Below the pieces are notes generated by a model. It was not told where the DNA came from, did not search any database, and was given only the letters and a program-made list of their open reading frames with translations. Made by a program: the position numbers and the translations under genes. This document shows, piece by piece, positions 2,113 to 15,203 of a stretch of 34,224 nt of DNA. Positions within the stretch are counted from its first letter, which is position 1; each line of letters opens with the position of its first letter. Location: the NCBI GenBank assembly GCA_030426845.1, contig JAUHXR010000060.1:1-34224 (forward strand), in the 5' to 3' direction. Origin of the DNA: Polyangia bacterium (GTDB taxonomy: Bacteria; Myxococcota_A; Polyangia; Polyangiales; Sandaracinaceae).

Positions 2113-2388
2113 ATGACCAGCCTGGCCGAGTCCCGAGTCGAAGAGGTGATGGCCATGGCCACCGCCGACGGCTCGGACTGGGCGGACGCGGTGCGCGGGC
2201 GCCTCCGCGCGGAGGGGCGGCGCATCAGCGGCATGTGGCCGGGCACCCTCGGCGAGGCGCGGGTCCGCGCGCGGCGAATCCTCGCCCGGGCGCTCGACGA
2301 GGCCGCCCCGCGCGACGTCCGCGAGCAGGTGGCCCGCGCGCTCTACGCGGCCGCCCGGCGCGACTGGAACGAGGGCGGCGAGGCCTGA
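2113..2388 (+). CDS. Small hypothetical protein upstream of rtcBA
   Basis: I do not recognise this family. The 91-residue product (from ATG 2113) is rich in Arg, Ala and Glu and is predicted to be soluble and helical, with a central ISGMWPGTLGEAR motif that could be a conserved turn. No signal peptide or membrane segment is visible. The start is uncertain: a GTG at 2071 and ATGs at 2113, 2149 and 2155 are in frame, and only 2155 has a purine-rich site (GAAGAGG) at normal spacing, which would give 77 residues. The opposite strand is also open here but shows no recognisable protein. The gene ends before the rtcB control region, so it is probably a separate transcription unit. Confidence 0.55.
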   Translation: MTSLAESRVEEVMAMATADGSDWADAVRGRLRAEGRRISGMWPGTLGEARVRARRILARALDEAAPRDVREQVARALYAAARRDWNEGGEA

Positions 2389-2424: not shown

Positions 2425-2448
2425 ACGGGCCCAGGACGCGCCCAGGAT
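2418..2448 (+). repeat. Three 11-bp-phased direct repeats upstream of rtcB (candidate activator sites)
   Basis: GCCCAGGAC occurs at 2418-2426 and 2429-2437, and GCCCAGGAT at 2440-2448, with an exact 11-bp period, about one helical turn. They lie about 67-97 bp upstream of the sigma-54 -24 element, where enhancer-binding activators commonly bind. A reverse-oriented CCTGGG half-site is at 2402-2407. Binding by an RtcR-type activator is inference. Confidence 0.5.
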
Positions 2449-2513
2449 ATCGTCGGCGCGCGCCTCGTCTCGTCCGCTGGCGCGTCGCTCCGGGCGCCGG
2501 GCCGTCGGCGGCG

Positions 2514-2529
2514 TGGCACGCTCGATGCT
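2514..2529 (+). promoter_or_regulatory. Sigma-54 (RpoN) -24/-12 promoter of rtcBA
   Basis: TGGCAC (2514-2519), a 5-nt spacer, then ATGCT (2525-2529) matches the sigma-54 consensus TGGCAC-N5-TTGCW at all but one position, with the essential GG (2515-2516) and GC (2527-2528) 12 bp apart. A start about 12 nt downstream, near 2540, would give a leader of about 17 nt that holds the AGGAG ribosome-binding site at 2543-2547. In E. coli rtcBA is also sigma-54 dependent. Confidence 0.75.
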
Positions 2530-2556
2530 CAGGGAGCGCTCGAGGAGAACGAGACC

Positions 2557-3780
<1,224 letters not shown>

Positions 3781-3784
3781 CCGG

Positions 3785-4831
3785 GTGTCCGAGCTCATCG
3801 AGATCGACGGCGCGGAGGGGGAGGGCGGCGGTCAGGTCGTCCGCACCTCGCTCGCGCTGTCGGTGGCCACCGGCCGGCCGGTTCGGGTCCGCAACGTGCG
3901 GGCGCGGCGCGGCCGGCCGGGCCTGCTCCGTCAGCACCTCACCGCGCTCGAGGCGGCGGCCGAGGTGAGCGGCGCGCGGGTCGAGGGGGCCTCCCTCGGC
4001 TCGCGCTGCGTCGCGCTCTACCCGAGCGGTCGCGTCGCGCACGGGAGCTACCGCTTCTCGGTCGGCACGGCGGGGAGCGCCCCGCTCGTGCTGCACACCG
4101 TCGTGCCGGGGCTGCTCGCCCACCCGGGCGAGAGCCAGATCGTCGTCGAGGGCGGCACCGACAACCCGGCCGCGCCGCCGTCGCGGTTCCTGACCGAGGT
4201 CTGGGCGCCGCGGGTGCGTCAGCTCGGCGTGCAGCTCGACGTCGAGGTGCCGCGCCGCGGGTTCTTCCCCGCGGGCGGCGGCCGCCTCGAGGTGAGCCTC
4301 CGGGTGCCCGAGCGACTCGAGGCCTTCGAGATCCACGCGCGCGGCGCGCTGCGCGAGGCCCGGGCGATCGCCACGCTCAGCCGGCTGCCGGCCCGCGTGG
4401 GCGAGCGGGAGCTCGACGAGCTCGCGCGCGCGCTGGACGGCGCGCTGCCGCCGACCGTCGCTCGGCTCGAAGAGATCCCGGATCCGCGCGGGCCCGGCAA
4501 CGTGCTGAGCCTCGCGCTCCACGCCGACTCTGGCGTCGAGGTGTTCAGCGCGTTCGGCGCGAAGGGCAAGCCGGCGGAGGCGGTCGCGCGCGAGGTCGCG
4601 GCCGAGGCCACGCGCTGGCTCGCGTCGGGCGCGCCGGTCGGCGAGCACCAGGCGGACCAGCTCGTGCTCCTCCTCGCGCTCGCGGGCGGCGGCTCCTTCA
4701 CCACCGTCCGCCCGAGCCTGCACACCCGCACCCAGCTCGCGCTCATTCCCCGCTTCCTCGACGTGGAGCTCACGCTCGACGAGGACCCCGTCGAGGACCG
4801 AGCCCGCGTCACCGTCCGGCCGCGCGGGTAG
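3785..4831 (+). CDS. rtcA: RNA 3'-terminal phosphate cyclase RtcA
   Basis: RtcA converts RNA 3'-phosphates to 2',3'-cyclic phosphates with ATP, through an enzyme-histidine-AMP intermediate, and so feeds or edits substrates for RtcB. The 348-residue protein has the N-terminal EGEGGGQ motif (11-17), the family signature RRGFFPAGGG (157-166), ADQLVL (290-295), and PSLHTRT, in which His313 matches the adenylylated histidine. The start is GTG 3785, 4 nt after the rtcB stop, with AAGGGG about 8 nt upstream inside the end of rtcB, which implies translational coupling. Both genes use the same GC-rich codon style as their neighbours, so nothing suggests recent acquisition. Confidence 0.95.
   Translation: MSELIEIDGAEGEGGGQVVRTSLALSVATGRPVRVRNVRARRGRPGLLRQHLTALEAAAEVSGARVEGASLGSRCVALYPSGRVAHGSYRFSVGTAGSAPLVLHTVVPGLLAHPGESQIVVEGGTDNPAAPPSRFLTEVWAPRVRQLGVQLDVEVPRRGFFPAGGGRLEVSLRVPERLEAFEIHARGALREARAIATLSRLPARVGERELDELARALDGALPPTVARLEEIPDPRGPGNVLSLALHADSGVEVFSAFGAKGKPAEAVAREVAAEATRWLASGAPVGEHQADQLVLLLALAGGGSFTTVRPSLHTRTQLALIPRFLDVELTLDEDPVEDRARVTVRPRG

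Positions 4832-6839: not shown

Positions 6840-15203
<8,364 letters not shown>

Follow-up and report, generated by a model that had tools for sequence, protein, structure and literature searches.

The control of RNA repair by RtcR was established in E. coli and Salmonella, and its wide conservation in Proteobacteria has been described (PMC9879122). In Salmonella, the rsr-yrlBA-rtcBA RNA-repair operon is RtcR-controlled and sigma-54-dependent (PMC7790460, PMC9879122) and is known to be induced by RNA fragments ending in a cyclic phosphate, in a manner that depends on both rpoN and rtcR (PMC7790460). A model for the RtcR ligand and for activation was put forward by Hughes et al. 2020 (PMC7790460), and RtcA and RtcB bind RtcR (PMC9650030). 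As for the enhancer, a 2016 review gave that of Salmonella RtcR as not known (PMC4987338), and no published RtcR enhancer motif was found in the literature that we searched.

Here we describe an rtcBA operon from a Polyangia bacterium (Sandaracinaceae), contained in a 34,224-nucleotide stretch of DNA (the window; 74% GC). Among the closest described systems is that of E. coli K-12, which has the same rtcBA order, a TGGCAC-type element (TGGCACGACGGTTGCA, at -54 before rtcB) and an RtcR protein 59% identical to that of the window's genome. E. coli also shares a GATA-N6-TATC arrangement with the window's relatives. The E. coli rtcR gene is, however, divergent from and adjacent to rtcBA (188 bp gap), whereas in the window's genome it is found on a separate contig, and upstream of the window's rtcB a single GATATC remains. 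The Salmonella operon resembles that of the window as an RNA-repair operon under RtcR and sigma-54, which in our case is predicted from sequence, but in the window neither rsr nor Y RNA genes lie between promoter and rtcB, and rtcB comes first. Within the myxobacteria, Sorangium cellulosum So ce26 (L074) and Nannocystis (L106) have the same genes and promoter type, with the element 24-43 nt before rtcB in loci of this type (27 nt in the window); they differ in that rtcR is adjacent and, in Sorangium, in that the intergenic region has phased half-sites.

The rtcB and rtcA genes of the window are separated by 4 nt and form one operon (Table 1). The genes 5' of rtcB are a short ORF, for which no clear relative was seen among the fetched loci, and a ceramidase-like ORF, the latter named by eye from its sequence. 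Elsewhere in the window, positions 6840-15203 of the minus strand hold a single open frame of 2787 aa that, judged by eye, is made up mostly of repeated CDG.DNDCDG..DEG-like motifs and has an N-terminal stretch resembling a von Willebrand type A domain.

Table 1. Features of the rtcBA locus, in window coordinates
Feature	Position	Strand	Remarks
Short ORF ahead of promoter	2113..2388	+	doubtful gene, not rtcR; without Pfam match
GATATC, lone remaining GATA/TATC half-site	2446-2451	.	in zone of relatives' phased candidate enhancer
Sigma-54 promoter -24/-12 element, TGGCAC-GCTCG-ATGCT (TGGCACGCTCGATGCT)	2514..2529	+	10/11 consensus; conserved in RtcR-bearing relatives
Predicted untranslated leader (TCGAGGAGAACGAGACC)	2540..2556	+	17 nt; start assumed 12 nt past -12 C
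Shine-Dalgarno AGGAG	2543-2547	+	within predicted 17-nt leader
rtcB, 3'-phosphate RNA ligase	2557..3780	+	407 aa; PF01139, 4.2e-128
rtcA, RNA 3'-terminal phosphate cyclase	3785..4831	+	348 aa; GTG start; PF01137, 3.4e-65

The -24/-12 element and its conservation with RtcR

The sequence-only reading had placed a near-consensus sigma-54 promoter, TGGCAC-N5-ATGCT with GG and GC 12 bp apart, 27 nt before rtcB, and its exact positions were recovered: the GG (2515-2516) and the GC (2527-2528) are spaced by 12, 27 nt separate the end of the element from the rtcB ATG, and 10 of 11 positions agree with TGGCAC-N5-TTGCW. The short AGGAG-bearing leader that it had predicted also agrees with the sequence and would run for 17 nt from about 2540.

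In DNA this rich in GC, such a site might simply be a chance match. Relaxed searches of the window alone are what this reading draws on, for with up to two mismatches TGGCACN5TTGCW is found 7 times, against 6.3 expected from shuffles. The rtcB element is the top site on the plus strand of the window; an equal-scoring second site (22941, minus strand) is not part of the rtcBA locus. Since matches in the window are about as frequent as in shuffles, composition alone cannot judge the site, and it is position that gives it significance. Pattern searches of the whole 9.4-Mb genome returned 10 exact TGGCACN5WTGCW sites over the two strands, compared with 6 when the pattern was reversed as a control, so that only ~1e-4 would be expected within the 200 nt ahead of one gene, and a score of at least 10 was reached in 14 of 3960 random 200-nt stretches drawn from the same loci. 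Chance is made unlikely by where the site lies, by how well it matches and by its conservation alongside RtcR; we attach next to no probability to it, and the conservation described below already contradicts it. The element is thus confirmed as real: it is unlikely to have arisen by chance, and its conservation removes doubt.

RpoN is encoded by one gene in the genome (PF04552, 9e-66), as is RtcR (C94:6450-6992, minus strand). The latter is the homologue, combining CARF, AAA+ and HTH domains, that the sequence-only reading had proposed to look for. It is a full-length protein of 531 residues with an RtcR/CARF domain (PF06956, 3e-78), a sigma-54 AAA+ domain (PF00158, 3e-48) and a Walker A motif of sequence GPTGAGKS, and its 59% identity to E. 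coli RtcR extends over the full length, C-terminal helix included. The HTH was assigned by alignment alone, the C-terminus being collinear with that of E. coli RtcR, and the recognition helix NDADRLRKYL is present in both proteins. Of the 48 RtcR proteins of the fetched loci, 37 have exactly this helix, and the others depart from it at one or two positions. The sigma-54 contact loop reads GAFTGA in 44 of the 48, GSFTGA in three and GAYTGA in one, namely that of the window's genome (L009 / L221, G000 contig C94); GAYTGA variants have been reported to be functional in sigma-54 activators (PMC6615313).

Upstream regions were compared across 84 class-level rtcB orthologues, an element being called when at least 9 of 11 positions matched within ~250 nt of the start. 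The element tracks RtcR: it was found at 32 of the 58 rtcB genes with RtcR in the genome, versus 1 of the 26 that either lack RtcR or are second copies (Fisher p=3e-6 over the 84 orthologues, phylogeny ignored). A phylogeny-corrected pair test on the rtcB tree pointed in the same direction (2.9 to 0.1) and, with 7 pairs, was underpowered (median p 0.25). By class, the element was present at 25/45 genes with linked rtcR, 6/11 with unlinked rtcR, 1/2 with rtcR a few kb off, none of the 20 from genomes that lack RtcR and 1/6 second copies, which lie apart from rtcR in genomes where the other rtcB is linked. Many of the linked rtcB genes below threshold show a near variant such as AGGCAC-N5-CTGCG, and in 12 of 16 loci where rtcR and rtcB are set apart by other genes or by a long gap, the element lies beside rtcR, before the first gene. 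Two genomes with an unlinked rtcR, G007 and G049, have RtcR and no element at rtcB.

Several leaders in this collection have features of their own. At L017 and L042 (G039), some 300 nt separate the upstream element (TTGGCACGGGCCATGCT) from rtcB, and a tRNA 3'-end-like sequence, GGTTCGATCCCCGCC, lies in that interval. In a Sphingomonadales locus, a tRNA gene (L084:3651-3724) is located between the sigma-54 element and rtcB, with a second (L084:1671-1743) just past the rtcR 3' end; the first may be a tRNA gene within the leader of an RNA-repair operon, or else mark an insertion site. No tRNA was found by ARAGORN in the order-level rtcB loci. In five further Sphingomonadales loci (L100, L123, L126, L133 and L139), two common hairpins are seen ~100 nt before rtcB, one being a long GGCGGCCGGAAT(A/G)GGCCGGCCGCC stem; over the two hairpins together, three pairs are changed on both sides, and neither hairpin has an Rfam match.

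Phased GATA/TATC half-sites

Many relatives have a divergent rtcR-rtcBA pair separated by some 120-280 bp, and in these intergenic regions GATA and TATC are abundant at a spacing of 10 bp. The divergent regions contain 23 pairs at 10 bp, against 0.70 in shuffles (maximum 5 in 200 shuffles), together with 11 pairs at a distance of 20 and 4 at 30. Much the same was seen in held-out regions, in which genes intervene between rtcR and rtcB: 16 pairs at 10 bp against 0.17 expected (maximum 2 in 300 shuffles), with 8 at 20 and 4 at 30. The half-sites take the form GATA-N6-TATC-N6-GATA and partial versions of it. Of the class-level rtcB genes, 35 of the 58 with RtcR in the genome have a 10-bp pair, as against none of the 26 that lack RtcR or are second copies. 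The GATA-N6-TATC of E. coli is located at -166 before rtcB and falls within the 175-nt regulatory region of Engl et al. 2016 (PMC5175333). Half-sites phased in this way are probably the RtcR enhancer, to judge from their spacing and distribution.

Whether such sites might instead be part of rtcR's own promoter can be decided from genomes in which the two loci are separated, these being the cases that tell the DNA of the rtcB promoter apart from that of rtcR. In four genomes (G003, G055, G001 and G006) rtcR is unlinked and both the element and phased half-sites are nevertheless found at rtcB. In G003 and G055 the pair precedes rtcB and not the unlinked rtcR, indicating that the sites belong with the rtcB promoter; the rtcR-promoter explanation was accordingly rejected. 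A search of 17 genomes for GATA-N6-TATC-N43-73-TGGCAC gave three matches, all ahead of rtcB, and with the orientation reversed the matches were rtcB in G013 and two background-like places elsewhere. Across these 17 genomes no convincing target of a wider RtcR regulon was seen beyond rtcB.

The unlinked rtcR and the upstream region of the window

In the window's genome, rtcR (contig C94) and rtcBA (C107) each lie several kb inside their contig or with another gene upstream, and the divergent adjacent arrangement is not seen. The same lack of linkage is found in G001, G003, G006, G007, G049 and G055; around the unlinked rtcR genes, no common gene order was seen apart from a weak match of a neighbouring gene with G003. 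The RtcB and RtcR trees are in conflict. The window groups with G005/G008 in the former and with G003 in the latter; placing its RtcR with that of G005 was rejected (p=0.0009), as was placing its RtcB with that of G003 (p=0.015). RpoN of the window's genome is 86% identical to that of G005 and 84% to that of G003. The simplest reading would be an early separation of rtcR from rtcBA in this family, after which the G005/G008 lineage gained another rtcR beside its rtcBA; on these trees, an exchange of rtcR next to a resident rtcBA in G005/G008 appears likely.

Upstream of the window's own rtcB, the intact 10-bp phased pair is absent, and this is the weakest link of the case. When mismatches are allowed, two or three phased half-sites can be placed without reaching significance (p=0.10 for three). 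The TATC of the single GATATC starts at 2448, 66 bp ahead of the -24 element, and the stretch that holds it, TATCGTCGGCGCGC, aligns with the relatives G001 and G006 and is common to G001. The candidate enhancer of the window appears largely eroded, reduced to one GATATC. At positions 2419-2451 there are also three period-11 direct repeats, CCCAGGACGGG CCCAGGACGCG CCCAGGATATC, which end in the remaining half-site. RtcR might bind weakly here, might at high level do without a strong site, or might have been replaced by another activator.

The last of these would mean that the sigma-54 promoter is real and is served by a different enhancer-binding protein, and that the separation of rtcR from rtcBA was accompanied by loss of the RtcR enhancer. 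Myxobacteria have many sigma-54 activators, rtcR is on a separate contig and an intact phased enhancer is missing, all of which are compatible with such a replacement. The genome nevertheless encodes a full-length RtcR, unlinked rtcR genes elsewhere still pair with an element and half-sites at rtcB (the four genomes named above), and the element is missing from all 20 rtcB genes in genomes without RtcR, though other activators are presumably present there. We therefore regard replacement as improbable.

Very improbable, too, is a decaying promoter in a lineage that is losing the circuit, with rtcBA read through from the upstream genes. The eroded enhancer and the unusual GAYTGA loop of RtcR would fit with decay, as would the lack of any terminator-like site from the upstream ORF to rtcB and the state of genus g3 of the same family, in which G002 has neither RtcR nor the element and G007 has RtcR and no element at rtcB. 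Against this, the window has the top-scoring -24/-12 element of the family members compared, both RpoN and RtcR are intact, and positions 1950-2600 yielded no sigma-70-like promoter.

We consider it likely that the phased half-sites are an RtcR enhancer shared across phyla, a signature of RtcR regulons for which no description was found in the literature searched and that goes with a near-invariant recognition helix and stays at the rtcB promoter when rtcR becomes unlinked, and that the lineage of the window combines an unlinked rtcR with an eroded enhancer.

Predicted RNA-repair control beyond the studied bacteria

Taken together, these results make it very probable that positions 2514-2529 are a working sigma-54 promoter of rtcBA that is switched by RtcR, with ligand, oligomerisation and induction predicted here by analogy with E. 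coli and Salmonella and RtcR binding upstream of this rtcB putative. RpoN-polymerase would wait in a closed complex at the element. Ligand-bound RtcR would oligomerise, as in those two species, and would be positioned upstream by GATA-type half-sites, which are weak in the window. Hydrolysis of ATP by RtcR would then open the promoter, and rtcB and rtcA would be made only on demand.

That control of the sigma-54/RtcR type might operate on rtcBA in a distant phylum had been raised by the sequence-only reading, and promoter, RpoN, RtcR and conservation all agree with it. That reading had left undecided whether the control was conserved or gained again. Conservation fits better, given the 59% full-length identity of RtcR and the occurrence of the same promoter and phased GATA/TATC element from E. 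coli to Acidobacteria, Planctomycetes and Myxococcota; horizontal spread of the circuit is possible.

RtcR control, established in E. coli and Salmonella, can now be traced by sequence through Myxococcota and on to Acidobacteria and Planctomycetes. Through the phased GATA/TATC signature the RtcR enhancer becomes directly testable, and this signature is the result most worth testing; it would also allow RtcR targets to be found in other genomes, genes other than rtcBA included. The window itself adds one rtcBA operon of the established RtcR/sigma-54 type, with an unlinked activator gene and an apparently eroded enhancer. With rtcBA behind an E. coli-type promoter and RtcR encoded elsewhere in a myxobacterial genome, the known circuit very probably extends far past the bacteria in which it has been studied.
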